A DNA stretch of 64,000 nucleotides from Streptomyces iranensis (lineage in GTDB: Bacteria; Actinomycetota; Actinomycetes; Streptomycetales; Streptomycetaceae). The stretch covers positions 248,001 to 312,000 of the forward strand of contig NZ_JAGGLR010000002.1 of assembly GCF_017874715.1 (NCBI RefSeq), written 5' to 3'. The position numbers were made by a program, and so were the translations under genes. Shown here piece by piece: positions 602 to 22,924 of this stretch. Numbering within the stretch: the stretch's first letter is position 1; every line of letters begins with the position of its first letter. The notes under the pieces are model-generated. The model searched no databases, was not told the DNA's origin, and saw only the letters and a list, made by a program, of their open reading frames with translations.

Positions 602-1000
602 TTACCCGGCCACCACCGCGAATGCCTCGATCTCCATCAGGAACTCCGGCCGCACCAGCGAGACGACCTGCACCGCCGAGGCGGCGGGCAGCCGGTCGTC
701 GGGTATGCAGGCGGCACGGGCCTCGCGGATGGCCGCCATATGGGCCATGTCCGTGACGAAGTACGTCAGCTTGATCACATCGTCGAAGGTGGCACCGGCG
801 GCGGCGAGGCAGCGCCGCAGATTCTCGAAGACCTGGCGGGCCTGGGCCACCGGATCGCCCTCGCCGACGATGGCGCCCGCCTCGTCCAGGGCGATCTGGC
901 CGGAGACGGCCACGAAGTGCCCGGTGCCCTGGACGACATGGGAGTACTGGGCGGCGGGCGCGACCCCGTCCGGGGCGGGGATCCTGATCAACTCACTCAT
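602..1000 (-). CDS. RidA/YjgF/UK114 family protein
   Basis: This 132-residue protein has the length and motifs of the RidA family: YSHVVQGTGHFVAVSGQIALD near the N terminus in pieces, the VFENLRRCLAAAGA helix, and an ending in which IEAFAVVAG closes the trimer core. RidA proteins deaminate reactive enamine/imine intermediates made by PLP enzymes. I chose the ATG giving MSELIRIP; the open frame runs 12 codons further but the extension is not conserved-looking. It lies 13 bp downstream of the ABC ATPase on the same strand and may be the last gene of that operon, which contains a PLP enzyme. The arginine that binds the enamine carboxylate is probably the R of LVRPEF near the C terminus. Confidence 0.85.
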   Translation of the reverse strand: MSELIRIPAPDGVAPAAQYSHVVQGTGHFVAVSGQIALDEAGAIVGEGDPVAQARQVFENLRRCLAAAGATFDDVIKLTYFVTDMAHMAAIREARAACIPDDRLPAASAVQVVSLVRPEFLMEIEAFAVVAG

Positions 1001-1013
1001 GGGTGCAGCGTAA

Positions 1014-2570
1014 TCAGGTGAGGGCCGACCAGGCACGCGTCAGGTCGGCCGTGAACGGGTGGCTCGGGGTGGTCAGCACCTGGTGGGCCGGGCCCTGCTC
1101 GATCAGTTCGCCCGCCTCCAGGACGGCGATGCGCGTGGCCAGGGCCGCCGCGTCCAGGTCGTGGGTGATGAGGATCAGGGCCAGGTCGGTGTGGTCGCGG
1201 GGCAGGGCGATGAGGCGGTCGAGGATGTCCCGGCGGGTGATCGGGTCCAGGCCGGAGGTGACCTCGTCGCATACGAGCACCCGGGGCCGCGCGAGCAGGG
1301 CGCGGGCGAGAGCGGCACGCTGCAGCTCGCCGCCCGACAGCTGCCCCGGCAGGCGTCGTACGAGGTCGGGCGCGAGTCCGAGACCGTTCAGCGTCGCCTC
1401 CGCCTCGGCCCGCGCCGTCGCCGGGGCGGCTCCTCGCAGCCGTGACGCCGTGCGCGCCACCTGGTCCAGGACCGGCCGGTGTTCGTCGAAGGCGGCCCGT
1501 GCGTCCTGGAAGACGTACTGGACGGCGGCGAGTTGCTCCCGGGTGCGGGAGCGCAGGCTGCGGGGCAGCGGGGAGTCGTCCAGCAGCACCTCTCCGTCGT
1601 GGTCGCGGTGGAGCCCGGCCAGGCACCGGGCGAGCGTGGTCTTGCCGCTGCCCGAGCGGCCGACGACGGCCAGGCAGGTGCCGGAGCGGACGGTGAGCCC
1701 GGCGGTGCGCAACACGGTGGTGGCGCCGTGGCGTGCGGCCAGTCCGCGCACCCGCAGTCCGGGTGTCCCCGGCCCGGGTGTCGCCTCCCCGGCCTGCCGC
1801 TTGTCGCGTGGTACGTCGCCCGGCGGGGTGCTGGGCGGTGTGGTCGGCCGTGCGGCGAGGAGCGTACGGGTCCAGGGGTGTGCGGGCGCCGTCCACATTC
1901 GCTCGGCGGGCGCCGACTCCACCACCCGGCCCGCGCGCATCACCACGACCTCGTCGGCGAGCGCTCGCACCACATCCAGGTCATGGCTGAGGAGTACGAC
2001 GGCGATGCCGCGTTCGGCGACCGCGGACAGCCGCTCCACGACACGGCGTTTGGTGAGCGCGTCCTGTCCCGTGGTCGGTTCGTCCGCGACCACGACACGC
2101 GCGCCCAGCAGCAGCGCCTGCGCGAGGACGACGCGCTGCTGCTGACCGCCGGACAGCTGGTGCGGATAGCGGTGCAACAGCGCCTCGGCGTCCGGCAGTT
2201 GGGCTTGGGCCAGGGCGGCGAGAACCCGCTCGCGGGCCTCGGCGCGGCGCTCGGAGCGCCGCGGATGGCGCACCTGCCGGCGGGCTATGTCATGGAGGAG
2301 CGCGCCGATCCGGCGCGCCGGGTTGAGGACCGCGGCCGGATGTTGCGGGACATAGCCGACCAGCCCCTCGGCCACGCGTACGTCACCCGTCACCCGGGCC
2401 CCCGGCGGGTACTCGCCGAGCAGCGCCAGCCCGGTGGTCGTCTTGCCGCTGCCGGACGGGCCCACCAGCGCGGTGATCCGTCCGGGCGCCACGCTGAGGC
2501 TCACGTTGTCGACCACGGCCCGGCCGTCGATCTCGACGCGCAGGTCCTTGATCTCGGCGACCGCGTTCAC
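1014..2570 (-). CDS. Oligopeptide/nickel-type ABC importer, two ATPase domains fused
   Basis: A 518-residue protein carrying two complete ABC ATPase domains, equivalent to DppD and DppF joined in one chain. Domain 1 has Walker A GPSGSGKTT (about residues 37-45), signature LSGGQQQR and Walker B VVVADEPTTG. Domain 2 has GRSGSGKTT, LSGGELQR and VLVCDEVTSG. It powers import through the two upstream permeases. The chosen GTG start overlaps the permease stop as GTGA and sits 5 bases after GGAAG; an alternative GTG lies two codons upstream. The open frame continues far upstream but only as a shadow of the permease. The linker around residues 245-275 is rich in Pro and Thr. Context suggests the cargo is a small metal-chelate or peptide. 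Confidence 0.9.
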   Translation of the reverse strand: MNAVAEIKDLRVEIDGRAVVDNVSLSVAPGRITALVGPSGSGKTTTGLALLGEYPPGARVTGDVRVAEGLVGYVPQHPAAVLNPARRIGALLHDIARRQVRHPRRSERRAEARERVLAALAQAQLPDAEALLHRYPHQLSGGQQQRVVLAQALLLGARVVVADEPTTGQDALTKRRVVERLSAVAERGIAVVLLSHDLDVVRALADEVVVMRAGRVVESAPAERMWTAPAHPWTRTLLAARPTTPPSTPPGDVPRDKRQAGEATPGPGTPGLRVRGLAARHGATTVLRTAGLTVRSGTCLAVVGRSGSGKTTLARCLAGLHRDHDGEVLLDDSPLPRSLRSRTREQLAAVQYVFQDARAAFDEHRPVLDQVARTASRLRGAAPATARAEAEATLNGLGLAPDLVRRLPGQLSGGELQRAALARALLARPRVLVCDEVTSGLDPITRRDILDRLIALPRDHTDLALILITHDLDAAALATRIAVLEAGELIEQGPAHQVLTTPSHPFTADLTRAWSALT

Positions 2571-3445
2571 GTCCACTTCCCCTTCTTCCGCTCCGTGCGC
2601 CCGTTCTTCCGCTCCGCGCGCCCGTTCTTCCGCTCCGCGCGCCCGCCGTCGTCCAGCGCCGCGTCGAACAGCAGATTGCTGCCCGTGGTCAGCGCGACGA
2701 TCAGCAGCGCGGGCACGACGACCGCCCAGGGCTGGACGAACAGCCCGGTGCGGTTGCGGTCCACCATCACCGCCCAGTCCGCGGCGTCCGGCGCCACGCC
2801 GACGCCCAGGAAGGCCGCGGTGGCCACCAGGTAGAGCACACCGGTGAGCCGGATTCCGGCGTCGGCGGCCAGCGTGCGCAGGATCGACCGCCCGACGTAG
2901 CCGACCCCCATCCGCCACCAGGTCTCGCCCTGCAGCCGCATCGCCTCGACCGCCGGGCGCGAGGCGGCCTCGGCGGCCGCGGCGCGCACCAGCCGGGCGG
3001 CGTCCGGGATGTTGGCGAGCGCCACCAGCGGCGCCAGGCCCGCCGCGCCCGGGGTGAAGACGGTGGCGACCAGCAGGATCAACAGCAGCGACGGCACGGC
3101 GAGCAGGATGTCCAGGGGGCGGATGAGCAGCTCCTCCAGCCGGCCCCGGTGGGTGAGCGCGGCGGTGAGCCCGATCGGCAGCGCCACCAGATACGCGAGC
3201 GCGGTCGCCGCCAGCGCGGTCAGGACCACCGGCCGCCCACCGAGCAGGATCTGCCGCCAGACGTCACGGCCCACGAAGTCGGTGCCGAGCCAGTGGCCGC
3301 CACCGAGCGTGAAGGAGGTGGCGCGCGGGTCGGGCGCACCGGCGAACAGCGGCCCGAACAGGGCGAGGGCGAGCGGGACGGCCACGATCGCGAGGGCGAA
3401 CGCGTAGGCCCCCCGGCCCGGCCGCCCGTCGAGGTACGCGCTCAC
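2567..3445 (-). CDS. ABC importer permease, DppC-like
   Basis: A 292-residue inner-membrane permease of the DppC/OppC/NikC type. It has an N-terminal membrane segment, then the WLGTDFVGRDVWRQILLGG region typical of this subunit, and the binding-protein-dependent transport loop near EAMRLQGETWWRM (the EAA loop that docks on the ATPase). It pairs with the upstream DppB-like subunit. The GTG start overlaps the previous stop as GTGA. The C-terminal tail is unusual: a 7-residue basic repeat, RAERKNG, occurs about three times and comes from a 21-bp tandem DNA repeat at about 2578-2645. This tail lies just before the ATPase start, so repeat expansion would alter only the cytoplasmic end. Confidence 0.9.
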   Translation of the reverse strand: MSAYLDGRPGRGAYAFALAIVAVPLALALFGPLFAGAPDPRATSFTLGGGHWLGTDFVGRDVWRQILLGGRPVVLTALAATALAYLVALPIGLTAALTHRGRLEELLIRPLDILLAVPSLLLILLVATVFTPGAAGLAPLVALANIPDAARLVRAAAAEAASRPAVEAMRLQGETWWRMGVGYVGRSILRTLAADAGIRLTGVLYLVATAAFLGVGVAPDAADWAVMVDRNRTGLFVQPWAVVVPALLIVALTTGSNLLFDAALDDGGRAERKNGRAERKNGRTERKKGKWT

Positions 3446-4395
3446 GCCGTCACCTCGCCCCGGGGTGCGAATCCGCGGGTCACCAGATCGGCGCCGATGT
3501 TCAGGACGACGGTGATGACGCCGAAGACCACCGCGAGCCCCTGCACCACGGGCACATCGCGTTCGGCGACCGCGTTCATCAGCACGGTTCCCAGACCGGG
3601 GATCACGAACAGGGCCTCCACGACGATGACACCGCACAGCAGCCAGTCCACGGTGCGGGCCAGGTGCTGGGCGGCCGGGGCGACCGCGTTGGGCAGGGCG
3701 TGTGCGTAGCGGATACGGGCGCCGGGGATCCCGTAGCGGCGCGCCTGCGCGGCGTACGGCGAGGCGAGCGCCTCGATCATTCCGGCGCGCACCATGCGGG
3801 CCAGCGAGCACACCGGCCGGGACAGCAGGACGAGCACGGGCAGCACCAGCGCGGCGGGGTGGCCGAGCAGATCGGTGCCGTAGCCGACGGCGGTCGGCGG
3901 CAGCCAGCCCAGCCGCAGCGCGAAGACGGTCACCAGCAGCACCCCGAGGGCGAATTCGGGGACGGCGTAGACGCCGAGCGTCACCGTGCTGATGGCCCGG
4001 TCGGCGAGCCGTCCCCGGTGGCGGGCGGCGAGCACACCCAGCCCCACCCCGGCCGGCACCAGGAGCAGCACCGTGAGCGAGGCGAGGAGCAGGGTGGGGC
4101 CGAAGCCATCGGCCACGTACGCGCTCACGGGCCGCCGCGAGACCAGCGAGGTGCCCAGGTCGCCGTGGGCGAGCCCGGCCGCCCAGTCCAGCAGGCGGGC
4201 GGTGGCGGGCCGGTCGAGCTCCATGGTCTCGCGGATGGCGGCGACGCGTGCGGGGTCGGGCTCGTCCCCGGCGAGTGCCACGGCCGCGTCGCCCGGCAGC
4301 GCCTCGGTGAGCGCGAAGACCAGCAGTACGACGGCCACAGTCTGGGCGGCGCCGAGCAGCAGCCGCCGGGCGAGCCAGGAGCGCAATGGCCTCAA
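3442..4395 (-). CDS. ABC importer permease, DppB-like
   Basis: A 317-residue permease of the DppB/OppB/NikB type. The first membrane segment starts at about residue 12, followed by TEALPGDAAVALAGDEPDP and a large extracytoplasmic region, then five more membrane segments. The EAA loop is near EALASPYAAQARRYGIPGA, and VVEALFVIPGLGTVLMNAV is the conserved C-terminal block. No ATG or GTG suits the N terminus; a TTG overlapping the substrate-binding protein stop as TTGA is the best start, with a second TTG three codons later. It forms the channel with the DppC-like subunit. Confidence 0.87.
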   Translation of the reverse strand: MRPLRSWLARRLLLGAAQTVAVVLLVFALTEALPGDAAVALAGDEPDPARVAAIRETMELDRPATARLLDWAAGLAHGDLGTSLVSRRPVSAYVADGFGPTLLLASLTVLLLVPAGVGLGVLAARHRGRLADRAISTVTLGVYAVPEFALGVLLVTVFALRLGWLPPTAVGYGTDLLGHPAALVLPVLVLLSRPVCSLARMVRAGMIEALASPYAAQARRYGIPGARIRYAHALPNAVAPAAQHLARTVDWLLCGVIVVEALFVIPGLGTVLMNAVAERDVPVVQGLAVVFGVITVVLNIGADLVTRGFAPRGEVTA

Positions 4396-5984
4396 CGGAG
4401 CCAGACCTTGTCGAAGCGGGCCCAGTCCAGGGTGTTGGCCGGGGCCTCGCGGTCCACGCCTCCCACAGAAGGCGCGGTGCCGATGATCCAGTCGGCGAAC
4501 CCCCAGACCAGGAAGCCTCCTTCGGCGTACAGACGGCGCTGCATGCGCTCGTAGACGGCGGCGCGGGCCTTGTCGTCCTTGGTGGACTGGGCCTGCTGGT
4601 AGAGGGCGTCGAAGTCCTTGTGGTGCCACTTGGTGGCGTTGGTGGTGGATCCGGTGAGCAGGCGCTGGGAGATGTGGGACTCGATGGGCATGGCGCCGGA
4701 GCGGTAGCTGCACAGCGTGCCGGAGTCGAGGATGTCGCTCCAGTACGAGTCCTTGCTGCCGTTCCGCACCCTGATGGTGACCCCGGCCCTGGCCGCCTGG
4801 TCGCGGAAGATGCCGGCGGCCTCGGTGAATCCGGCGGCGACGGGCGAGGTATCGAGGGTGACCCTGAGGTCGGCCGCGCCCGCCTCCTCGAGCAGCTTGC
4901 GCGCGCGGTCGAGGTCCTGTTCGCGCTGGGGCAGCCCGGCCGGGTAGTACTCGTAGCCCTTGCCGAACAGGTCGTTGCCGAGCCGGCCCGCCCCGGACAG
5001 GGCGCCGTCGATCAGCTCCTTCCGGTCGGCGATGAGGAAGAACGCCTCACGGACACGCCTGTCGTCGAACGGAGGGCGGTCGGTCTTCATGGCGAACGCC
5101 TGCATGGCGCTGCCCGGCAGCCGGACGATCTCCATCCGGCCGCCGCGCTCATGGGCGCGTGCGGTGGTGGGGTTCAGCTCATGGGCGTATTCGACCTGGC
5201 CGCCGAGGAGCGCGTTGACGCGTGCGGACTCCTCGTTCGCCACGATGAATTCGAGCTCGTCGAGGTGCGGGGCGCCGTCCCAGTGGTCGTCGTGGCGCCG
5301 CAGCACGGTGGAGCGGCCCGGGGTGAAGGAGACGAACCGGAAGGGCCCGCTGCCGATGGGCTTACGGTCGAATTCCTTCGCCCCGTCGGGGACGATGTAC
5401 GCGCCGAACGCGGCGAGCACGTTGGGGAACTCGGCGGTCGGGCGCTTGAGGACGAACTCGACGGTCCGCCGGTCCACGGCCCGGCTCGCCGCGAGGTCGA
5501 TGGGTTCGAGGGACGCCTTGGCGCGGTACGCCTCCTTCGGGTCGGCGATGCGGCGGTAGCTGTAGAGGACGTCGCGCGCGGTCACCGGCCGGCCGTCGTG
5601 GAAGGTGGCCTCCCGCAGGGTGACCTGCCAGCGGTCCAGGCCCGCGTTCGGCTCCCATGTCCGGGCCAGGCGCGGCCGGGCGGAGAGGTCGGCGCCGTAG
5701 TCGGCGAGCTTGTCGAAGAGCGCCTTGGCTCGGGCGACATCGGCGAATAGATTGCTCAGATGCGGGTCGAGGGTCTCGCTCGCGCCACCGCCCGCGAAGG
5801 CGGCGCGCAGCCGTCCGCCGCGCCGTGGCTTTCCGTCGCTCTTCGTGTCGCCCCGGCCGGAGGCACCGCCGCCGCATCCGGCGAGGGTGAGGGCGCCGAG
5901 CCCGGCCAGGCCCGAGGCGGCGGCGAGTACGCCGCGCCGGGGCGGGCCCGGGAGGTGGAGGCGGGGAGCAGGGTCATCATGCAT
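4392..5984 (-). CDS. ABC importer substrate-binding lipoprotein, SBP family 5
   Basis: A 530-residue extracellular solute-binding protein of family 5 (peptide, nickel and opine-metallophore binders). The N terminus has PPRRG followed by a hydrophobic stretch and the lipobox LAGC with Cys at residue 37, so it is probably a Tat-type lipoprotein. Family landmarks include TLDPHLSNLF, the FHDGRPVTARDVLYSYRRI block and the IGSGPFRF segment. The ATG start has AAGGAA about 8 bases upstream. It is 107 bp downstream of the methyltransferase and begins the transporter half of the operon. Ligand cannot be read from sequence; the Zur-like box and chelate-type biosynthetic genes upstream suggest a metal complex. 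Confidence 0.9.
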   Translation of the reverse strand: MHDDPAPRLHLPGPPRRGVLAAASGLAGLGALTLAGCGGGASGRGDTKSDGKPRRGGRLRAAFAGGGASETLDPHLSNLFADVARAKALFDKLADYGADLSARPRLARTWEPNAGLDRWQVTLREATFHDGRPVTARDVLYSYRRIADPKEAYRAKASLEPIDLAASRAVDRRTVEFVLKRPTAEFPNVLAAFGAYIVPDGAKEFDRKPIGSGPFRFVSFTPGRSTVLRRHDDHWDGAPHLDELEFIVANEESARVNALLGGQVEYAHELNPTTARAHERGGRMEIVRLPGSAMQAFAMKTDRPPFDDRRVREAFFLIADRKELIDGALSGAGRLGNDLFGKGYEYYPAGLPQREQDLDRARKLLEEAGAADLRVTLDTSPVAAGFTEAAGIFRDQAARAGVTIRVRNGSKDSYWSDILDSGTLCSYRSGAMPIESHISQRLLTGSTTNATKWHHKDFDALYQQAQSTKDDKARAAVYERMQRRLYAEGGFLVWGFADWIIGTAPSVGGVDREAPANTLDWARFDKVWLR

Positions 5985-6062
5985 GGCGGTGTTCCTTGAC
6001 GTGTGTCGGTGGCGGTCGTCGTGGGGCACGGCGGGCGGGAGCGCGGTCCGGTCAGCAGGGCG

Positions 6063-6102
6063 GCGGGTCAGTGGGTCAGTGGGTCAGTGGGTCAGCGGGT
6101 CA
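6063..6102. repeat. 8-bp tandem repeat between methyltransferase and transporter genes
   Basis: Five head-to-tail copies of an 8-bp unit (GTGGGTCA, with the two end copies reading GCGGGTCA). The fifth copy and part of the fourth lie in the last codons and stop of the methyltransferase; the rest are in the 107-bp spacer before the binding-protein gene. A change in copy number would alter the spacer length. Confidence 0.9.
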
Positions 6103-6925
6103 GCCGGGCCACCAGGTGCAGCCGGTCGGCGTCGACCGTGGTGGCCGCGTCGTCGCCCTCCCGCCACGGCGGCTCGGTGCGCGGCCCCGGCCGGTCGTAC
6201 AGGCCGAGGACGGTGAAGCCGTGCGCGGTCAGGCGGTGCCGGAGCTCCTGGGGGAAGAGCAGCCGCCAGGCCGAGCGCTGCTCGACCGGCGGGGAGCCGT
6301 CGTCGGCGGTCCATACGCGCGTCCGGCGCAGCAGTTGCGCCGCCCGGTCGAGATACAGGGTGGTGGTGGACCGGTAGCACGTGCCGTGATGGCTGAAGGT
6401 GTTGACGGTGGGGGCGTCGAGGAGTTCGGTACGGCCCAGGAAGAAGGCCCCGTTGCGCATCTCCGCGACGAGGAGCCCACCGGGTGCCAGCCCGGCGCGG
6501 CAGGAGCCGAGGAAGCCGTCGAGCTCGTCGTCGGTGTGGCAGTACAGCAGGGCGCTGTCCAGGCACACCACGGCGTCGAACGTCCCGAGGTCGAAGCCGC
6601 GCAGATCGGCGTGGCGGTACTCCGGCCCCGGGTGGTGCGCGCGGGCGTACTCCAGCATCGCCGTCGAGAGGTCGGACCCGGCAACCGTACGGCCCGCGCC
6701 GTGCAGATACGCGGCGTCCCGCCCGGTGCCGCAGCCGATGTCCAGGACCCGCGGGCCCGCGCCGTACCGCCGCAGGACGTCCTCGGCCCAGCGCCCGGCG
6801 AGCCGCTGGTGGTCGGGGAATCTGGCCTCGTACAGTTCGGGGCTGTCGATGAGCAGATTGCCCCGTGTCGTCTCGCGCTCCGATGCGTATGTCATGCCGC
6901 TCTCGCTCATGCCGTCCTCGCTCAT
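6092..6925 (-). CDS. Class I SAM-dependent methyltransferase
   Basis: A 277-residue cytosolic methyltransferase. The SAM-binding motif I VLDIGCGTGRD is at about residues 60-70, motif II acidic residue follows in GSDLSTAMLEYA, and FDAVVCLDSALLYC and LAPGGLLVAEM are the later core strands. The ATG overlaps the stop of the MFS gene as ATGA, so the two are translationally coupled. As part of the Zur-linked operon it may methylate the product or an intermediate, but the acceptor is unknown. The last codons fall inside the 8-bp repeat. Confidence 0.87.
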   Translation of the reverse strand: MSEDGMSESGMTYASERETTRGNLLIDSPELYEARFPDHQRLAGRWAEDVLRRYGAGPRVLDIGCGTGRDAAYLHGAGRTVAGSDLSTAMLEYARAHHPGPEYRHADLRGFDLGTFDAVVCLDSALLYCHTDDELDGFLGSCRAGLAPGGLLVAEMRNGAFFLGRTELLDAPTVNTFSHHGTCYRSTTTLYLDRAAQLLRRTRVWTADDGSPPVEQRSAWRLLFPQELRHRLTAHGFTVLGLYDRPGPRTEPPWREGDDAATTVDADRLHLVARLTR

Positions 6926-8175
6926 GCCGCCGCGGGGACGGCCGTGTGCTGGGCGGGCAGGGTTCCGGTGCGGCGCAGCCAGGCGACGCCACCGGCCGAG
7001 GCGAGGCCGAAGGCCAGGCAGCAGGCCCAGGGCAGCCATGCGGCGCCCCCGTGCGCCCCGGCGTCCATGGCCCAGCCGACGGCCGTGTTGCCCACGGCGG
7101 CGGCGATGCCGGAGACCACGTAGAAGAGCCCGAAGTACGTGCCGGTGAGCTCCCTTCGCCCGAACCCGGGGATCAGCTCCATCACAAAGGGCTGGGCGAC
7201 CATCACACCCAGGTAGAGCAGGAGGGCACCGGCCAGGACGGGCAGGGCGTACAGCGCCTTCGCCCCAGGCCCGCCGGGCGTGGCCCCCGCCACCGCCATG
7301 GGTGGCAGGAAGGCCAGGCCCATCAGCGCCAGGCCCGCGCAGATCCACCGCGCCCGGCTGCCGCGCGACTTGAGTGCATGCGTGATCCGCAGTTGGAGGC
7401 CGAGGTTGGCGAGCGTACCGACGAGGAAGACCAGCCCGGCGGCTCCGTCCCAGCCGGTGGCCTGGCGTGCCCCGGCGGGTAGCAGCAGATACAGCTGGTT
7501 TTCCAAGGCGAACATGGAGACCATGGCCAGCGAGAAGGCCAGGAAGGCGCGGTTGCCGACCACTTCCCGCCAGTCGGCGAGGACACCGCCGGGCGACGGT
7601 GTGACGGCGCGGGCGGGGAGCACCAGCGCCTGGGCGAGGGTCAGCAGCGCGAAGATGGCGGCGGCGGTGAGCGCGGAGGCGCGGAAGTCCACCAGCAGCA
7701 GGGCGCTGCCGAGCAGCGGTCCGATCAGGGCGCCGATGGTGGCGAAGACGTTGAACAGCGCGAACGCCTCCGCCTCGCGCCCGCCCGACTCCTGCGCCAG
7801 ATACGCCCGTACGGCCGGGTTGAACAGGGCCCCCGCCAGGCCGCTGAGCACGGAGGCGGCGAGCAGCACCGGCAGGCCGTCACCGAGCGCGAAGAGCGCG
7901 AATCCGAGGGTGCGGACGGCGCAGCCGGTGATGATGACCCCGCGCGCGCCCAGCCGGTCGGCGGCCGATCCGCCGATGATGAACAGACCCTGCTGGCTGA
8001 GGTTGCGCACCCCGAGGACCGTGCCGACGACGGCCGCCGACATGCCCAAGTCCTCGCTCAGATGGGTGGCGAGATAGGGGATGAGCAGGTAGAAGCCGGT
8101 GTTGACGCCGAGCTGGTTGACCAGCAGCAGGCGGATCGCGAGCGGGAAGCCGCGCAGTTCACGCCACGTCTTCAC
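6922..8175 (-). CDS. MFS transporter, probable exporter
   Basis: A 417-residue twelve-helix major facilitator protein. The loop 2-3 signature GGSAADRLGARGVIITG and a tidy two-bundle hydrophobic pattern support this. The GTG start giving VKTWRELRGF is preceded by GGGAGGGGAG and overlaps the 3' end of the epimerase gene by 17 bp; an upstream extension in the same frame has no RBS. Embedded between biosynthetic enzymes and an importer, it most plausibly exports the pathway product, as MFS pumps do in staphylopine-type and siderophore loci (inference). Confidence 0.88.
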   Translation of the reverse strand: MKTWRELRGFPLAIRLLLVNQLGVNTGFYLLIPYLATHLSEDLGMSAAVVGTVLGVRNLSQQGLFIIGGSAADRLGARGVIITGCAVRTLGFALFALGDGLPVLLAASVLSGLAGALFNPAVRAYLAQESGGREAEAFALFNVFATIGALIGPLLGSALLLVDFRASALTAAAIFALLTLAQALVLPARAVTPSPGGVLADWREVVGNRAFLAFSLAMVSMFALENQLYLLLPAGARQATGWDGAAGLVFLVGTLANLGLQLRITHALKSRGSRARWICAGLALMGLAFLPPMAVAGATPGGPGAKALYALPVLAGALLLYLGVMVAQPFVMELIPGFGRRELTGTYFGLFYVVSGIAAAVGNTAVGWAMDAGAHGGAAWLPWACCLAFGLASAGGVAWLRRTGTLPAQHTAVPAAA

Positions 8176-9259
8176 GGTGCTCCCCTCCCTCGGTTCCCTC
8201 GGCCTCCTCGGCGGTCGCCCGTCGCCGCACACCGAGTCCGGGGCGGCCACTGGTCCGTACGACCCCGTCGGTGCCCCCGATGCCGGTCCACGGGTCGTGG
8301 GCGAGCAGCAGATGGCCATCGAGGTCGATCCAGCGGGCGCGGTCCGCGAGGTGCACGGCGGGCGCGAGGCCGAGGGTGCTGGCGGTCAGGCAGCCCAGCA
8401 TCAGGTCGGTGCCGCTGCCCTCGAGCAGCGAGGCGATCCGCAGCGCGGCGTGGACACCGCCGCACTTGGCGAGCTTGACGTTGACGCCCTGCACCCGCCC
8501 GGCGAGACGGCGGACGTCCTCGTGGTCGACGGCGTCCTCGTCCGCGATGACCAGCAGCGGCGAGCGTTCGGCGAGCCGGGCCAGTGCCTCGGGGTCACCC
8601 GGTGCGATGGGCTGTTCGACGGCCTCGACGGCGGGCTCCAGCTCCGCGAAGCGGGGCAGCAGCTCCCGCGCACGGGCCACGGTCCAGGCGCCGTTGGGGT
8701 CGAGCAGCAGCCGGGCGGTGGGCGCGGCGGCGCGCACGGCACGTACGCGCGCCACGTCGTCCTCGGGGTCCGGGCTCCCCGCCTTGATCTTGATGACGGA
8801 GAAGCCGCTGTCGGCCAGAGACCGGGCCCGCACCGCGGCGCGCTCCGCCGGAACGATGCCCACCGTGCGGGCGGTGGTGGCGAACGGCCGCGGCGAGGAG
8901 GGGTCGAGGAGCCGGTGGAGTGCCAGGCCCGCGCGTTTGCCGCACAGGTCGAGGAGCGCCGATTCGACGGCGGCCCGCACCGCGGCCGGGCGGTGGTGGC
9001 CGGGCTCCTCCTCGCGCAGGGCGGACAGCGCGCTCTCCGGATCGGCGCAGCGAACCAGGTCCCGGGACGCCTGGTGCAGCAGCCGCTGGAGGGTGGCGGT
9101 GTCGAGGCCGTAGTACCCGCTGGTGACGGCCTCGCCATGGCCGTACTGCCCCGCGTGCTCGACGGTCAGCCATACGGCGTCGCGGGCGGCCATGGTGGAA
9201 CGGGAGATCCGCAGCGGCTCGGCGAGTTCGAGGCGTACGGTGCGCTGGTCGGCTTTCAC
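8159..9259 (-). CDS. Enolase-superfamily dipeptide epimerase-like enzyme
   Basis: A 366-residue member of the mandelate racemase/muconate lactonizing group, closest in pattern to L-Ala-D/L-Glu and related dipeptide epimerases. The KIKAG strand supplies one catalytic Lys and VNVKLAKCGG the opposing Lys, the pair that defines the epimerase branch. Metal ligands fit LLLDPNGAW (Asp), EQPIAPGD (Glu) and IADEDAVD (Asp). GTG overlaps the PLP gene stop as GTGA. In this operon it could invert a stereocentre in an amino acid or dipeptide intermediate. A typical cell-wall role is less likely given the neighbours. Confidence 0.87.
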   Translation of the reverse strand: MKADQRTVRLELAEPLRISRSTMAARDAVWLTVEHAGQYGHGEAVTSGYYGLDTATLQRLLHQASRDLVRCADPESALSALREEEPGHHRPAAVRAAVESALLDLCGKRAGLALHRLLDPSSPRPFATTARTVGIVPAERAAVRARSLADSGFSVIKIKAGSPDPEDDVARVRAVRAAAPTARLLLDPNGAWTVARARELLPRFAELEPAVEAVEQPIAPGDPEALARLAERSPLLVIADEDAVDHEDVRRLAGRVQGVNVKLAKCGGVHAALRIASLLEGSGTDLMLGCLTASTLGLAPAVHLADRARWIDLDGHLLLAHDPWTGIGGTDGVVRTSGRPGLGVRRRATAEEAEGTEGGEHREDVA

Positions 9260-10347
9260 GAGGTGCTTTCCAGGATCGGGGACCCGCTGCTCAGCGGGTC
9301 GGTGACGGCGGTGCAGCGCACCCAGCCCGTGGCCTCCGTGGCGCGCGGGTGGGCGATCTGCACGGGCCGGGTGGCGGCGGTGGTCAGGTCGAGGCCGTGT
9401 GCGGCGGCGAAGTCGTCGTCGTAGACGGTGCCGAGATAGCGGTGCGGCCCGTCGGGGAAGACGGTGGCCACGACGGCTCCGGGGTGGACGCGGGCGGCCC
9501 AGGCGGCGACGAGCGCGACGGCTCCGGTGCTCCAGCCGCCGCTGATGAAGCTGCCCTTGGCGAGCGCCCGGCAGGTGGTCGCGGCCTCGGCCGGGCCCAC
9601 CCAGTGGACCTCCTCGAAGGCGTCGTAGGCCACGTTGCGCGGGTGGATGCTGCTGCCCAGACCGCGCATCAGCCGGGGCCGCGCGGGCTGGCCGAAGATG
9701 GTGGACCCGGTGGCGTCGACCCCGATGAGCCGCAGCTCGGGCCAGTGCTCGCGCAGGGGCCGGATGAGGCCGGCGCTGTGGCCGCCGGTGCCGACGCTGC
9801 ACACCAGGATGTCGAGATGGTCGAGCTGGGTGGTCAGTTCGGCGGCGAGTGAGGCGTAACCGGTGGTGTTGTCGGGGTTGTTGTACTGATCGGGCCAGTA
9901 GGCGTCCGGCAGCAGTGCCAGCATCTCGCGCAGCCGCGCCAGGCGGGCGGCCTGCCATCCGCCCTCGGCCGCCGGGCGGTCCACGAGCTCCAGGCGGACG
10001 CCGTAGGTGCGCAGCAGCCGCCGCATCGACGGTTCCAGCTCGGTGTCGCAGACCAGCACGATGGGGTGGCCGAGCGCCTGGCCCGCGAAGGCGAGGCCGA
10101 TGCCGAGGGTGCCTGAGGTGGATTCCACCACCGGGGCGCCGGGGCGCAGTTCGCCACGTTCCCGGGCGCCGAGCAGCATGGACACGGCGGCGCGGGCCTT
10201 CATCCCGCCGGTGCCGAGCCCTTCGAGCTTGGCCCAGAAGCCGGGGTGGGGGCAGGGCAGGTCGGTGGTGATCCGGGCGAGCGGGGTACGGCCGAGCAGG
10301 GCGAGGAGGTCGCCGCCCGCGGGGGCGTGGTGGAGGGCCGGGGTCAT
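9256..10347 (-). CDS. Cysteine-synthase-family PLP enzyme, atypical active site
   Basis: A 363-residue fold-type II PLP enzyme of the cysteine synthase/cystathionine beta-synthase family. The PLP lysine is probably in GTGGMKARAA, where the usual Lys-Asp-Arg is Lys-Ala-Arg. The substrate loop, normally TSGNTG or SSGN, reads ESTSGTLGIGLA, so the Asn is Thr. CSVGTGGHSAGL is the phosphate-binding glycine loop. These changes are like those in branch members such as SbnA that use other acceptors. The ATG overlaps the DUF364 stop as ATGA. It may make a diamino acid or join an amino acid to an activated serine; that is inference. The long C-terminal part (about 290-363) has no catalytic motif I recognise. 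Confidence 0.85.
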   Translation of the reverse strand: MTPALHHAPAGGDLLALLGRTPLARITTDLPCPHPGFWAKLEGLGTGGMKARAAVSMLLGARERGELRPGAPVVESTSGTLGIGLAFAGQALGHPIVLVCDTELEPSMRRLLRTYGVRLELVDRPAAEGGWQAARLARLREMLALLPDAYWPDQYNNPDNTTGYASLAAELTTQLDHLDILVCSVGTGGHSAGLIRPLREHWPELRLIGVDATGSTIFGQPARPRLMRGLGSSIHPRNVAYDAFEEVHWVGPAEAATTCRALAKGSFISGGWSTGAVALVAAWAARVHPGAVVATVFPDGPHRYLGTVYDDDFAAAHGLDLTTAATRPVQIAHPRATEATGWVRCTAVTDPLSSGSPILESTS

Positions 10348-11168
10348 GGGGCGCCCCCGTAACAGTGGATGGTCCCGGGGCCGCCGTCGAGCCAGAAGAA
10401 CGGGTAGGGCTCGGCGCACACCGCGGTGACCCCGGCGCCGATCAGCCGTGGCAGGATCGCGCTCCCGGTCTGGGCGAACATCACCAGTTGTCTGCCGTGG
10501 CGCAGGGCGTGCTCGCGCAGCGGCTCGAAGGTGCCGTTGCCGAGCGTCATACCGGAGGCGAGCACGGCGTCGCAGTCCGCCAGCCGCGCGAGCGCGTCGG
10601 TGGCGATCGGCTCACCCCACTCCGTGGTGCCGCCCTTGAGGTCGCACGGCACATAGCGCAGCCCTCGCGAACGCAAGTCCTCCAGAAGGGAGTTGACCAC
10701 TCCCACGACGAGGACGGTCCGGCCCGGCGCCAGGTCCAGCAGCCCGGCGACGGACGCGGCCCGCGCACGGGACTTCCGCAGGGAGTCGCCCGCCGCGAGG
10801 GCCACCGGCCGCGCCCCGTGGCGGGATGTGTGCGGCATCGCATGCATCAGATACGCGTCCAGGGCGGCGATCCGGACCGGCGTCAGGTCATGCCGCAGCA
10901 ACCGGGCCACGTCCGCGCCGACGCAGTCGTCGATCGCGCCGTCGGGCAGCGCACCGGGCTCGACGGCGCACGAGCCGACGGCCTCGGCCAGCCGCAGGCT
11001 GAACACCTCGTTGCGGTAGCCGCCGCCGCGCCCGTCATGGCGTACGGCCTGGCGGGTGGTGAAGGCCACGGCGATCCGCAGGGTGCGCGGATCGGGCCCG
11101 AGGGCCCCGTCCAGCACCCGGCCGTGCAACTCCTCGAAGGAGGCGGCTTGTTCGGTGCGCGTCGTCAT
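10344..11168 (-). CDS. DUF364/DUF4213 (putative heavy-metal chelation) Rossmann-like protein
   Basis: A 274-residue protein with the DUF4213-DUF364 layout, families named for a putative heavy-metal chelation role. The N-terminal half holds GGYRNEVFSLRLAEAVG, and the C-terminal Rossmann-like half holds RTVLVVGVVNSLLEDL, then CDAVLASGMTLGNGTFEPL and MFAQTGSAILPRL, the conserved block of DUF364. ATG overlaps the ATP-grasp stop as ATGA. Some relatives sit in molybdenum or metal-use loci. The exact chemistry is not established; here it lies second in a Zur-linked operon. Confidence 0.82.
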   Translation of the reverse strand: MTTRTEQAASFEELHGRVLDGALGPDPRTLRIAVAFTTRQAVRHDGRGGGYRNEVFSLRLAEAVGSCAVEPGALPDGAIDDCVGADVARLLRHDLTPVRIAALDAYLMHAMPHTSRHGARPVALAAGDSLRKSRARAASVAGLLDLAPGRTVLVVGVVNSLLEDLRSRGLRYVPCDLKGGTTEWGEPIATDALARLADCDAVLASGMTLGNGTFEPLREHALRHGRQLVMFAQTGSAILPRLIGAGVTAVCAEPYPFFWLDGGPGTIHCYGGAP

Positions 11169-12421
11169 GCGACCACCACCCGCGGGCGCACCCCGGCCAG
11201 CAGGGCCTCGACACGGTCGCGGGCCCCGGTCCCGGCCGCGTCGGCCGCCATGACATGGCCGAGGTATTCGTTGTTGCTACCGGTCGCCGCGACCTGCTTG
11301 CCGGGCTCGGCGAACCGCACCTCGAGAACGTCCGGCTCCTCCCGCATCGCGTCGCCGCCCTCGATCGACACCAGCGTTCCGGCGGTGTCCGGCACCAGGA
11401 AGCCGATGGCGGCGCTGCGCAGCCCGGTGTCCAGCCGCCGCAGATCGGGCCGCCGGCCGAGGCTTACGTCCACGCAGGCGGCCGTGAGGTCGATCCCGGT
11501 GACATGGCGGACCAGTTCGGTGATGCGGTTCCCCGCGGGGCGGGGGTTGACCTCCACCACCCGTGGCCCGGCGGCGGACAGCTTGATCTCGGTATGGGCC
11601 ACGACGCCGTCCAGGCCGAGTCCCTTCAGCGCGAGCAGCGCGGTCTCGCACACCGCCTCGGTGTCCTCCGGGGCGAGCGCGGCCGGGAACATGTGCCCGG
11701 TCTCGATGAACGCGGGCGCCCCGCCGACGCTCTTGTCCGTCACCCCGACCACCTCGGCCGCACCGCCGAAGGACACCGTCTCGACACTGACCTCCGGCCC
11801 GTCGAGGAGCTCTTCGAGCAGCACGACGGGGGAACGGAGCTGGCCACGGGCGTTGACGGGAAAGTCGGCGAGCGCCCGGAAGGCGTCCAGCAGCTCGCGT
11901 TCGTCCTCGACCCGCCGTACGTACATCCCCGCGCACAGATCCACGGGCTTGACCACCAGCGGATAGCCGATGTCGCGGGCCGCCTCGGCGGTGTGCGCCC
12001 AGTCGGCGCAGACCGCGTAGCGCGGCCCGGCCACCCCGGCGGCCTCGAGCACCCGCCGGGTGGCGTCCTTGCGGCAGGCGTTCCGCACGGCTTCGGCGGA
12101 GGGTCCTGGCAGCCCCAGCCGGTCGGCGATGCGCGCGGCCGTCGGCAGGTAGTAGTCGCAGGACGTGATGACGCCGTCGAAGCGCAGCGTGCCGTGGAGC
12201 CCTTCCACCAGCGGCAGCAGGGAGTCGGCGTCGTTGGTGTCGGCGGTCAGCACATGGCGGGCCGCGAGCAGCGGATGCGCGGTGCCCTCGGGCGCCGCAC
12301 GCAGATAGTGGTGCAGATCGCGGGTGAGGAAGGTGAACTCGTGCCCACCCTCGCGGATCGCCCGTGGCAGCAGCCTGCTCATCGATCCGACCCAGCTTTC
12401 GACCATCAGCAGGTGGGCCAC
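11165..12421 (-). CDS. ATP-grasp ligase, first gene of the Zur-linked operon
   Basis: A 418-residue ATP-grasp carboxylate-amine ligase. Residues about 140-175 hold the YPLVVKPVDLCAGMYVRRV nucleotide-binding block, VVLLEELLDGPEVSVE follows, and VVEVNPRPAGNRITELV is the Mg-binding C-terminal motif (Glu-x-Asn). Enzymes of this group make peptide or amide bonds with an acylphosphate intermediate, as in carnosine or dapdiamide-type ligases. The GTG start has GGAGAG three bases upstream, and the open frame extends past it without support. About 120 bp upstream lies the Zur-like box, and all the genes down to the importer follow in the same direction with overlaps. It is the likely bond-forming step of the pathway. 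Confidence 0.88.
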   Translation of the reverse strand: MAHLLMVESWVGSMSRLLPRAIREGGHEFTFLTRDLHHYLRAAPEGTAHPLLAARHVLTADTNDADSLLPLVEGLHGTLRFDGVITSCDYYLPTAARIADRLGLPGPSAEAVRNACRKDATRRVLEAAGVAGPRYAVCADWAHTAEAARDIGYPLVVKPVDLCAGMYVRRVEDERELLDAFRALADFPVNARGQLRSPVVLLEELLDGPEVSVETVSFGGAAEVVGVTDKSVGGAPAFIETGHMFPAALAPEDTEAVCETALLALKGLGLDGVVAHTEIKLSAAGPRVVEVNPRPAGNRITELVRHVTGIDLTAACVDVSLGRRPDLRRLDTGLRSAAIGFLVPDTAGTLVSIEGGDAMREEPDVLEVRFAEPGKQVAATGSNNEYLGHVMAADAAGTGARDRVEALLAGVRPRVVVA

Positions 12422-12542
12422 AACTCTCCTTCGTCGTAGGCAGATTGGGGGTAAACCCTCGTCGTCGGGCTGGAGGTCGGGGCAGGCCGGGGCACAGGGC
12501 GCCGCCGGGTGTCCCCGCCTTGACCACCCACCGCACACTAAT

Positions 12543-12557
12543 CGATAATCGTTTTCA
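12543..12557. promoter_or_regulatory. Zur-like operator between divergent genes
   Basis: CGATAATCGTTTTCA matches the actinobacterial Zur pattern TGAAAATCATTTTCA at 12 of 15 positions and is an AT-rich island in GC-rich DNA. It lies about 120 bp upstream of the ATP-grasp start and 33 bp upstream of the divergent hydrolase start, so it could repress both. Zur binds such sites with zinc and releases when zinc is scarce. Fur/DmdR iron boxes and Nur boxes have different patterns. Binding has not been shown. Confidence 0.65.
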
Positions 12558-12590
12558 TTGTCATCTGATGGTCCGAGGATAGCGAGACAC

Positions 12591-14108
12591 ATGAGCTCCC
12601 CCCAACGGCGCGCCTCGGTGGCGTGCGCTCTGACGGCGTGCGCCGCCACCCTCGTCACCGGCGCGCCCGCCCCCGCCCACGCCACTCCCCCGACCCCGAC
12701 CGCGACCCCGACCCTTCGCTTCGGCGCCTGCCCGGATTCCGTACCGGACCCGCCCGCGCCGGAACACGTCGAGTGCGCCACGCTCGCCGTCCCGCTGGAC
12801 TGGAGCCACCCGGGCGGCAGGCGCATCCGGGTCGCCGTCTCCCGCGTACGGGCCTCCGGGCCTCCCGCCGAGCGGCGCGGCATCCTCCTGGTGAACCCGG
12901 GCGGGCCCGGCGGACCGGGGCTGCCGTACGCCGTCACCAAGCGCGCCAAACTCCCCGAGAGCGTCCGGCGTTCGTACGACATCATCGGCTTCGACCCGCG
13001 CGGCGTCGGCCACAGCGCGCCCGCCGGCTGCGGCCGCATGGGCGGCCTCTTCGACACACCGGGCGCCGATCCCGTACCGGTCGGCCCCAGGGCGGAGCGC
13101 GCACACCTCCACTCCCTGCGGCGCATGGCGGACGACTGCGCGGCGGGGGCGGCCGGCGCCCTGCCGCATCTGTCGACGGAGCAGACCGCATACGACATGG
13201 ACGCCATACGGGCGGCCCTCGGCGAGCGGCGCACCGGCTTCCTCGGTGTCTCCTACGGCAGCTACCTCGGCGCCGCCTACGCCGCCCACTTCCCCCGCCG
13301 CGTGTCCCGCATGGTGCTCGACAGCGTCGTCGGCCCATGGGAGTGGTACGACTTCGACCTGCGGCAGACCCGGGCCCTGCTGCGCCAGCGCGAGGTGTTC
13401 TTCCGCTGGGTGGCGGAGCACCCGGGGCGGTTCGGGCTCGGCGGCAGCCCCGAGGCGGTGCGCGAGGCGTATCTGCGGGTGCGCACGGGGCTCGCCACCC
13501 ACCCCGTGGACGGGTTCGGCGCGGCCGCGTTCGACCGTGCCGTCTACCGCGCGCTCGGCCGCACCGAACGCTGGACGGGCCTCGCCGACGGCCTCCGCGC
13601 CTCTCTGCGCGACGGCGACACCGGCGCCCTCCGCCCCGACGAGCCCTTCGACGGCCCGGAGTCACGCAACTACGAGGCCGCCAACCGGATCGTCAAGTGC
13701 GCGGACGGCCACGCCCCCACGCCCCGCCGGGTGGCCGCCGACATCCGCCGGACGCGGCGGCTGGATCCGCAGCCGGTCCTCACCGGTATCGAGGCGTCCA
13801 CCTGCGCCTACTGGCACCACCAGCCCGCCCACCGCACCCGGCTCGGCAGCCCCGGCGCCCCGCCCGCCCTGCTGATCGCCTCCGCCCACGACCCCGTCAC
13901 CCCCATCGAGGGCGCGCGCCGGCTCCGGCACCGGCTGCCCGGTTCGCGGCTGGTGACGCTCCACCAGGACTACTCCCACGGCGTGTTCGCCAGCCGGGGC
14001 GATCCGTGTGTCGATGGAGCCGCCGCCGCGTACCTGGTCGAGGGGAGGCTTCCGGCGGCCGATGTGCACTGCACCGGTCCCGGCCTGCCCGAACCGGACC
14101 AGGGCTGA
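12591..14108 (+). CDS. Secreted alpha/beta hydrolase, tripeptidyl aminopeptidase-like
   Basis: A 505-residue S33-type hydrolase with a C-terminal TAP-like domain, as in Streptomyces SlpD/SlpE and tripeptidyl aminopeptidases. A signal peptide covers about residues 1-33 (Arg-Arg, hydrophobic core, Ala-rich cleavage site near PAHA). The nucleophile Ser is residue 221 in GVSYGSY. IIGFDPRGVGHS is the conserved strand, DPVTP holds the Asp and YSHGVF the His. The ATG at 12591 gives the signal peptide; the frame extends a few codons upstream at a TTG. Divergent from the Zur-linked operon and close to its box, it might process a peptide product or free metals from peptides outside the cell, which is speculative. 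Confidence 0.88.
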   Translation: MSSPQRRASVACALTACAATLVTGAPAPAHATPPTPTATPTLRFGACPDSVPDPPAPEHVECATLAVPLDWSHPGGRRIRVAVSRVRASGPPAERRGILLVNPGGPGGPGLPYAVTKRAKLPESVRRSYDIIGFDPRGVGHSAPAGCGRMGGLFDTPGADPVPVGPRAERAHLHSLRRMADDCAAGAAGALPHLSTEQTAYDMDAIRAALGERRTGFLGVSYGSYLGAAYAAHFPRRVSRMVLDSVVGPWEWYDFDLRQTRALLRQREVFFRWVAEHPGRFGLGGSPEAVREAYLRVRTGLATHPVDGFGAAAFDRAVYRALGRTERWTGLADGLRASLRDGDTGALRPDEPFDGPESRNYEAANRIVKCADGHAPTPRRVAADIRRTRRLDPQPVLTGIEASTCAYWHHQPAHRTRLGSPGAPPALLIASAHDPVTPIEGARRLRHRLPGSRLVTLHQDYSHGVFASRGDPCVDGAAAAYLVEGRLPAADVHCTGPGLPEPDQG

Positions 14109-21541: not shown

Positions 21542-22303
21542 TCAGTTCGGGGCGGCAGCCACCGCCCGGCTCTTCTCGGCCTTCGCGGGCCTGGGGTTCA
21601 GCAACCGCTCGGCGAGCTCGCCGAAGAGGAGGCCGAAGCCACCCCACAGGATCAGCTGCATGGCGAGGGCGGACAGCCGGAACCGCCACAGGACGGTGGC
21701 CGGGAAGTCCGCCGGCACCTCGTTGATGACGGGCAGGAAGGCGAACGCCGGCCCGATGACGACGGCGAAGGCGGCCACCGCGGCGACGGTGGCGTACCAG
21801 GTGCCCAGCTTCGGGGCGAGCCGCTTGCCGAGGATGGTGGCGGCGATCGCGAGGAGCACGCTGAGCACCATCATCAGGAAGTACAGCGTCGTCCGCTTGC
21901 CGATGGTGTCGCCGTTGCCGACGGCGGGCGGGTTGGCCGGGTACTTCAGGAACGGCACGACATAGACCGCGAGCAGCGCACAGCCGGACAGCAGCAGCGC
22001 GGTGGCCCGCGGGCTGAAGCGGCCGACGCGGCCGAGGGCGACGCAGTAGGCGAGGGCGGCGATGCCGCCGAACGCGATCCCGTAGATCAGCACACCGGTG
22101 GCCAGGCCCGCGGTGGACTGCAGACTACGGGAGACGATCTCGACCTCGTGCTCATGCGCGGGGGCGTGGGCCTCCTCGAAGCCGATCGCGCGGTCGACGT
22201 TCGGCTCACCGAGGAAATAGGCGGCGATCAGGGCGAGCACACCGGCACCAAGACCGGCGAGCATGCCCCGCACCAACAGGTTTCTTACTGTTGCGGAGTT
22301 CAT
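21542..22303 (-). CDS. cbtA: CbtA-type cobalt transporter subunit
   Basis: A 253-residue membrane protein of the CbtA family (probable cobalt permease linked to B12). It has about five or six membrane segments, beginning LLVRGMLAGLGAGVLALIAA. The extracytoplasmic loop with Glu and His (EEAHAPAHEHEVE) could bind metal, and PFLKYPANPP is a family landmark. It lies 20 bp downstream of cbtB on the same transcript, under the cobalamin riboswitch, so B12 sufficiency would shut off cobalt uptake. Confidence 0.9.
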   Translation of the reverse strand: MNSATVRNLLVRGMLAGLGAGVLALIAAYFLGEPNVDRAIGFEEAHAPAHEHEVEIVSRSLQSTAGLATGVLIYGIAFGGIAALAYCVALGRVGRFSPRATALLLSGCALLAVYVVPFLKYPANPPAVGNGDTIGKRTTLYFLMMVLSVLLAIAATILGKRLAPKLGTWYATVAAVAAFAVVIGPAFAFLPVINEVPADFPATVLWRFRLSALAMQLILWGGFGLLFGELAERLLNPRPAKAEKSRAVAAAPN

Positions 22304-22794: not shown

Positions 22795-22924
22795 CGCACA
22801 CGCATCACTCGTCGCGGCCGTGCCGGGGGCTGTTGGGCGGCAGGCAGTGGCCGCGGAGGCGGGTCAGCAGTTCGGAGGTCTCCAGTGTCGCCGATCTCCC
22901 GGACCGCCCGCCTACAGTCGCGGT

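Follow-up and report, generated by a model that had tools for sequence, protein, structure and literature searches.

What do ten co-directional genes make that place a predicted dipeptide-forming ligase, further modifying enzymes, an exporter and an importer behind a Zur-type box, and what would switch them on? The question is raised by a 64,000-nucleotide stretch of the Streptomyces iranensis genome (11.98 Mb; assembly GCF_017874715.1, contig NZ_JAGGLR010000002.1, positions 248,001 to 312,000), which we call the window, and in which these genes span positions 1014-12421 of the minus strand. We consider it probable that they constitute a Zur-repressed zinc metallophore system, in which both the control by Zur and the identity of the metal are predicted from sequence. 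Judging from the enzymes encoded, the product is likely to be a dipeptide-like aminocarboxylate with one inverted residue.

The arrangement recalls the staphylopine (cnt) pathway, in which biosynthesis enzymes are combined with a major facilitator superfamily (MFS) exporter and a family-5 (Opp/Nik) importer. Biosynthesis genes, an MFS gene and a family-5 importer, whose ATPase resembles CntD and CntF, likewise stand together in the window. Unlike the staphylopine system, neither CntL (nicotianamine-synthase-like) nor CntM (opine dehydrogenase) is among the matches listed for the ten proteins; in their place the window has a pyridoxal phosphate (PLP) enzyme, a DUF364 protein, an ATP-grasp ligase, a dipeptide epimerase and a methyltransferase. 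An initial annotation of this DNA had claimed that nicotianamine synthase, opine dehydrogenase and nonribosomal peptide synthetase (NRPS) genes are lacking, and none appears among the Pfam and NCBIfam matches listed for the ten proteins.

A conserved row of ten genes

Protein functions were named from family models (Pfam, NCBIfam; Table 1). The ATP-grasp, DUF364, PLP, epimerase, MFS, methyltransferase and family-5 importer genes that the initial annotation had listed were all found on the minus strand. The range it had given, 4392-12591, stops at the solute-binding protein (SBP) gene and omits two permeases and an ATPase of the same row. With the starts chosen in this analysis, genes overlap at eight of the nine junctions, mostly by four bases; the only non-overlapping junction is a 107-base gap preceding the SBP gene.

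With the ATP-grasp protein as query, 192 stretches encoding relatives were found in the genome collection and the best 80, nearly all from Streptomyces, were kept. All ten genes occur in the same order in 72 of these 80 loci, and the quartet of ligase, DUF364, PLP enzyme and epimerase, for which a co-occurrence search had been proposed in the initial annotation, is thus found together and in order. Six of the eight exceptions run off the contig (L031, L044, L047, L052, L068 and L085). L045 has a 1.5 kb insertion between the first two genes and then reaches the end of the fetched stretch, and L058 stops after the epimerase with 7 kb of sequence remaining. The insertion in L045 (Wenjunlia tyrosinilytica, 11248-12762) separates the ATP-grasp gene from DUF364 and carries a transposase-like frame. 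Plasmids of Rhodococcus (L005), S. angustmyceticus (L008) and Embleya (L260) also carry these ten genes in order.

Among 396 sampled genomes of the phylum, six carried a DUF364 match (E 1e-10), all in Streptomyces, four of them of the window's type and two at 41% identity. The window protein shares 96% identity with a multispecies Streptomyces entry and 94% with one from S. rapamycinicus. Within the genus this operon type is not rare, its DUF364 being present in 69 of 295 Streptomyces genomes (at least 69% identity, hand count). Peptidoglycan-recycling or sugar genes as regular neighbours had been named as a sign against a metallophore; in the flanks looked at, those of the window, L005 and L008, none lies right beside the operon. 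On the Rhodococcus plasmid, a DUF1490 family gene (L005, 24308-24586) follows soon after it.

A RidA/YjgF gene (PF01042; 602-1036, minus strand) lies just downstream of the ATPase gene and was considered as an eleventh member that might clear 2-aminoacrylate. It was excluded because no RidA relative was matched in 22 searched stretches (20 genomes, including G407 with its truncated operon, plus L005 and L008); in the window it could be co-transcribed with the operon.

The Zur-type box and its promoter

Boxes were scored as the number of letters, out of 15, that match the palindrome TGAAAATGATTTTCA. A Zur-like box had been claimed at 12543-12557, and it lies at exactly those positions, matching the palindrome at 12 of 15 letters and the S. 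coelicolor Zur motif at 9 of 11 fixed positions (the latter derived by chromatin immunoprecipitation on microarrays and given as tGaNNatSatNNtCa; PMC5472717, in excerpt). The pattern TGAAAAYGATTWTCRNT, with up to two mismatches allowed, has a single match in the whole 12 Mb genome, which is the window box.

The box is conserved with the operon. We compared 81 upstream regions of up to 300 bases each, from the window and the 80 related loci; conservation across these is conservation within one family, Rhodococcus apart. The best score was 14 in one upstream, 13 in 36, 12 in 41, 11 in one and 10 in two, whereas shuffled upstreams (n=1620) reached a maximum of 10, placing the box beyond chance. 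It is aligned in the same promoter-like context in 79 of the 81, two of these being weak. Among the 79, the 15-mer and its right flank are near-invariant while the surroundings drift, with conserved columns running from -5 to +21; the distance to the start codon varies, being mostly 100-120 bases and 61 in five loci. Hexamers resembling -35 and -10 elements flank the box and suggest that it sits inside the core promoter. The Embleya plasmid L260, from the same family (Streptomycetaceae), has a 13/15 site.

Sites of equal score occur at znuA in the same genome: two 12/15 matches (L127, 1345-1359 and 1367-1381) lie just before and over its likely start codon (1372 or 1381). Two Zur boxes are likewise present at znuA in S. 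coelicolor (PMC5472717, in excerpt). A Fur-family gene (L001) is found on the same contig as znuA, 2 kb downstream. In S. coelicolor, zur likewise lies downstream of znuA. A looser Zur pattern gave 174 matches in the S. iranensis genome against 25 for a reversed control and was set aside.

The box also faces a divergent alpha/beta hydrolase gene, which was considered as its real target. This gene adjoins the operon in 37 of 73 testable loci, with one more in which the best-matching piece is farther off, and has no match in the other 35 with enough upstream DNA (E 1e-20). Of these 35, 33 keep the aligned box, and in the remaining two (L069 and L072) the match lies elsewhere. The box therefore belongs with the operon, and the hydrolase was rejected as its target. 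A sigma-70-like promoter (10/12) for the hydrolase at 12520-12549 of the plus strand overlaps the box, and therefore both directions could share one regulator in the window.

Table 1. Features of the operon and its upstream region in the window. NBD, nucleotide-binding domain; SAM, S-adenosylmethionine.
Feature	Position	Strand	Family models and remarks
Importer ATPase, two NBDs fused	1014-2576	-	two PF00005 stretches
Importer permease 2	2567-3445	-	PF00528
Importer permease 1, TTG start chosen	3442-4395	-	PF00528, PF19300
Family-5 SBP of importer	4392-5984	-	PF00496, 252 bits; peptide/nickel/opine type
Class I SAM methyltransferase	6092-6925	-	PF13649 and others
MFS transporter, predicted product exporter	6922-8175	-	PF07690
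Dipeptide epimerase, enolase superfamily	8159-9259	-	PF13378/PF02746
PLP enzyme, fold type II, SbnA/CysK2-like	9256-10347	-	PF00291
DUF364 two-domain protein	10344-11168	-	PF04016
ATP-grasp ligase, L-amino acid ligase type, predicted dipeptide-forming	11165-12421	-	PF13535, PF18603 LAL_C2; GTG start following AAGGAGAG
Inferred core promoter enclosing the box	12535-12564	-	-35-like ATGACA 12559-12564, -10-like TAGTGT 12535-12540
Zur-type box TGAAAACGATTATCG	12543-12557	-	12/15 vs palindrome, 9/11 vs published motif
Alpha/beta hydrolase, TAP-like, divergent, on the other side of the box, optional	12591-14108	+	PF00561, PF08386

Farther out in the window, 9 to 11 kb from the operon, are a gene of the CbtA cobalt-transporter type (21542-22303, minus strand) and a Peripla_BP_2 binding-protein gene (22820-23851, plus strand).

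Enzymes, relatives and a proposed route

The ATP-grasp protein scores above cut-off against both PF13535 (63 bits) and PF18603 LAL_C2 (57 bits), and its best solved relatives are the L-amino acid ligase BL00235 (3vot) and BacD. Thirteen of the 14 motif residues checked are kept in 82-83 of 83 rows, and D207 in 67. The epimerase is nearest to the DgcA and AE-epimerase models. Dipeptide epimerases are characterised by a KxK motif, a second catalytic lysine, metal ligands and a DxD motif, and no row that covers these positions (79-80 of 82) has lost any of them. The importer comprises a family-5 SBP (PF00496), two permeases (two PF00528) and two NBDs (a fused double PF00005); its ATPase is NikD/NikE/CntD/CntF-like, falling under the cut-offs of those models among the matches listed. 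DUF364 lies above the PF04016 gathering cut-off and has a two-domain fold. The family's name, heavy-metal chelation, had been offered as evidence of function and provides none: the crystal paper and a structure model made here agree in pointing to an enzyme, which DUF364 likely is.

The PLP enzyme has SbnA as its best solved relative (158 bits over residues 13-313). SbnA belongs to the staphyloferrin B pathway (2,3-diaminopropionate), and the PLP lysine, R132 and Y152 are common to both proteins; R132, Y152 and S185 are described as the SbnA residues for O-phosphoserine (PMC12414870, in excerpt). Unlike SbnA, the window enzyme is below the cut-off of the SbnA model, has Gly in place of S185, has no SbnB-type (OCD family) partner in the operon by Pfam, and stands outside the strict SbnA group in our tree. 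A beta-replacement on an activated serine is the predicted reaction.

As a control we took 15 loci, 235 kb in all, comprising every locus listed from the 396 genomes at or above the strict SbnA cut-off. DUF364 was matched in none of the 15. A site of at least 12 was present in one, 8 kb from the SbnA gene, and of at least 11 in four (six sites in 235 kb). Among the neighbours scanned (up to five in L210, L211, L213, L214, L218 and L219, and one in L216) were NRPS domains (L210, L213, L218 and L219), a ketosynthase (L211), TauD-type genes (L210, L214, L218 and L219) and OCD genes (L210 and L216). The strict SbnA loci had been considered as possible clusters of the type that makes [S,S]-ethylenediamine disuccinate (EDDS), an idea that was rejected; no lyase was found among the neighbours scanned.

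In an unrooted tree of 68 PLP enzymes (the window, 12 of the 80 type-A loci, L005, L008, 23 of the diverged type B described below, 15 strict SbnA and 15 others), a split supported at 100/99 separated types A and B from strict SbnA and from cysteine-synthase-like rows below the cut-off. The program cautions that long branches, those of type B among them, come together, and for this reason a shared origin of the type-A and type-B enzymes is no more than suggested. When plasmid-borne relatives were added in a second tree, type A was held together at only 67/87 and the Rhodococcus copy was not firmly placed.

These plasmid relatives are the closest found outside the operon, at 57-60% identity. 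The PLP enzyme had been characterised as atypical and cysteine-synthase-like; a PLP enzyme is indeed present, but its nearest kin are these MFS-paired enzymes, with SbnA more distant. We viewed nine plasmid loci, chosen from 40 listed of 204 records, and in eight the PLP gene directly precedes an MFS gene (L248, L249, L250, L254, L256, L257, L258 and L259; heavy-metal genes lie near five of these eight). In L248-L250 the PLP and MFS proteins are 57-58% and 43-45% identical, respectively, to those of the window. The mycobacterial CysK2-Rv0849 genes form a similar PLP-MFS pair, and CysK2 uses O-phosphoserine. While the adjacent genes are alike, the annotation places neither an importer nor a ligase, epimerase or DUF364 gene alongside the plasmid pairs, and no site of at least 12 was found in the three that were scanned. 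An importer-less unit of this kind is possibly a metal-ligand export device. The S. globosus plasmid L251 encodes a fusion of a PLP enzyme with an ATP-grasp domain (7960-10236), with a GHMP-like kinase, a lyase-family protein and an MFS protein as neighbours, inside an NRPS cluster; the two activities can therefore be joined in one protein.

DUF364 also marks a second group of clusters. By identity to the window protein, 295 Streptomyces genomes, including the source genome, were divided into carriers of type A (at least 69%) and type B (37-44%). Hand counts gave 69 genomes with type A, 55 with type B, two with both and 173 with neither; a type-B DUF364 used as query recovered an identical set of 122 genomes, with the 55 unchanged. 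Joint carriage in two genomes compares with 12.9 expected (Fisher p 3e-5, a statistic that ignores phylogeny), and this near-exclusion suggests a shared nutritional task. One double carrier, G407, has a type-B cluster and a type-A copy (L243) that lacks the methyltransferase, importer and box and looks like a remnant; the other, G642, has a complete type-A operon with an 11/15 site. By protein names, type B is also found in Tsukamurella, Nocardiopsis, Amycolatopsis and other genera.

We fetched 20 of the 55 type-B loci, hand-picked with regard to spread and to the length of the contig. In every one of the 20 a Zur-type site of 11-14 letters lies upstream of the cluster, and 17 have a site of at least 12; some additional sites that score 11 in these loci have the appearance of chance matches. 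At least three gene sets can be told apart: DUF364, a GHMP kinase, a PLP enzyme and an MFS protein with a FecCD/Peripla_BP_2 importer (plasmids L006, L007 and L009 carry this set too); a PLP enzyme and DUF364 accompanied by a FecCD importer, with a GHMP-like gene in divergent orientation; and a PLP enzyme, a PhyH oxygenase, DUF364 and an MFS protein with a family-5 importer. The last is exemplified by L162, where the content was scanned over 901-10704 (L160 and L163 being similar) and comprises importer, methyltransferase-like, PLP, PhyH, DUF364 and MFS genes with a 14/15 box. Its four importer proteins are 45-50% identical to those of the window; a matching SBP is also found in L160 and L163, while L159 and L171 have the core without one within the fetched stretch. 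Because the other enzymes and the importers vary among the gene sets, the PLP enzyme and DUF364 emerge as the common pair.

Together, the conserved box, the equally scoring znuA sites, conservation of the operon as a unit and the type-B boxes support the link to zinc and the logic of making, exporting and re-importing a chelate that the initial annotation had proposed. From this a mechanism can be predicted. Zinc-loaded Zur would block the promoter, and zinc shortage would open the operon. In a first step, catalysed by the PLP enzyme, an amine would replace the leaving group on an activated serine (O-phosphoserine being the likely one); the N-(2-amino-2-carboxyethyl) amino acid so formed would be an aminocarboxylate able to bind metal. 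DUF364, which apart from the PLP enzyme is the sole enzyme common to the gene sets of this kind examined here, may act on this unit, which the ATP-grasp ligase would couple through an amide to a second amino acid. The dipeptide epimerase would flip one residue and the methyltransferase would then methylate the product, which the MFS pump would export and the family-5 importer would recover as its zinc complex. A broader proposal, in our view evenly balanced, is that PLP enzyme and DUF364 lie at the heart of a modular and as yet undescribed class of actinobacterial zinc metallophores under Zur control. Here the ten-gene branch would lead to an epimerised, methylated L,D-dipeptide chelator, while sister branches would use a GHMP kinase or PhyH and may exchange the peptide-type importer for a siderophore-type one.

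Competing explanations and significance

Several observations weigh against a Zur-controlled zinc metallophore. The window box fits nine, not eleven, of the fixed motif positions; L018 and L021 have weak boxes (10/15), the best match of L069 lies at -255 and that of L072 in another register, L243 has no box at its operon, and the Rhodococcus upstream stretch (L005) reaches at best 10/15. A Zur-controlled copy of S18 is known in S. coelicolor (PMC6103462, in excerpt), and the S18 loci of S. iranensis, examined as a positive control, showed no clear Zur site upstream: L129 reaches at most 9/15 among its four best sites and L130 at most 10, while the 12/15 site of L128 follows the S18 stretch instead of preceding it. 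On the protein side, the PLP enzyme scores 243.4 bits against TIGR03945 (SbnA), below the cut-off of 349.95, and the SBP 51 bits against the staphylopine CntA model, where the cut-off is 800. Family-5 importers transport much besides chelates, and DUF364 is a family without an assigned reaction. The near-exclusion of types A and B may partly reflect ancestry. Finally, the metal could be copper, because the nearest PLP relatives outside the operon often sit with heavy-metal export genes.

That last point leads to a different account, in which the operon makes a metal-stress or copper-handling metabolite, such as a CysK2-type sulfur or amine conjugate, and Zur merely ties it to zinc starvation. 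In five of the nine plasmid loci viewed, a heavy-metal gene is annotated no more than 8 kb away, the products being heavy-metal ATPases, metal-sensitive regulators or a copper-binding four-helix protein, in keeping with such a role. Yet a dedicated importer and a Zur-type box are present in the operon, which the plasmid pairs lack as annotated and scanned, and we regard this account as unlikely. Equally doubtful, in our estimation, is a known Zur-controlled product, an aminopolycarboxylate resembling EDDS or ethylenediaminesuccinic acid hydroxyarginine (EDHA) made by an aes-type route. EDDS is not known to contain an amide bond, and a dipeptide ligase and dipeptide epimerase would therefore be idle in its synthesis. 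The precedent is nonetheless real: Zur controls EDDS in Amycolatopsis japonicum, and the structure of the compound suggests neither NRPS nor NRPS-independent siderophore (NIS) synthesis (PMC4993170, PMC9252823, both in excerpt), which makes it the nearest Zur-controlled chelator precedent outside both routes. EDHA, also an actinomycete chelator synthesised by neither an NRPS nor a NIS route, is assigned to an 11 kb cluster of Streptomyces scabiei (scab_5231-5311; PMC8914351, in excerpt), and aminopolycarboxylic acid metallophores are among the classes listed by antiSMASH 7 (PMC10320115, in excerpt). Against such a route, none of the ten proteins matched a lyase or decarboxylase family in Pfam; the route is least improbable for the PhyH-bearing relatives of the L162 type. 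The amide bond and inverted residue predicted here also differ from EDDS and EDHA as described.

Two further explanations do without a metallophore. A zinc-responsive antibiotic or signal, taken back up through a peptide importer, would accord with the resemblance of the ligase to BacD, the alanine-anticapsin ligase. It appears very unlikely to us, given that box and importer have been kept as a pair throughout the genus as well as in Embleya, and that near-exclusion with a second Zur-linked type suggests a nutritional task in common. The faintest prospect is scavenging of peptidoglycan or other peptides in zinc shortage, with the importer taking up peptides and the epimerase recycling L-Ala-D-Glu. 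The epimerase is nearest to DgcA and AE-epimerase models and the importer to peptide types, and the TAP-like divergent hydrolase, of a peptidase-type family, is present in 37-38 of 73 loci. The same hydrolase has no match in the other 35, and the ten conserved genes include no peptidase, encoding instead a dipeptide-building ligase, a PLP enzyme, a methyltransferase and an exporter.

A zinc metallophore remains the reading we prefer, made by a route that is likely undescribed in the literature searched. Within the genus, the predicted zincophore cluster for coelibactin in S. coelicolor is Zur-controlled (PMC6103462, in excerpt). Coelibactin is described as a putative non-ribosomal peptide, whereas the ten proteins of the window include no NRPS. 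The initial annotation knew of no pathway with this gene set, and we found no description of one by title or abstract in the open-access literature searched. Streptomyces has been heavily mined for natural products, yet in the excerpted review PMC6103462 coelibactin is the sole Zur-linked Streptomyces chelator cluster named.

The proposal is directly testable, offering one promoter, one operon and one predicted secreted metabolite. If it is true, dipeptide ligase and dipeptide epimerase chemistry would gain a new role in metal capture, and DUF364 a concrete biological setting. Types A and B combined are present in 122 of the 295 Streptomyces genomes (41%), 120 of which have one type only. Overall, about four in ten Streptomyces species would then carry an overlooked zinc metallophore system that is neither NRPS-made nor of the opine type.

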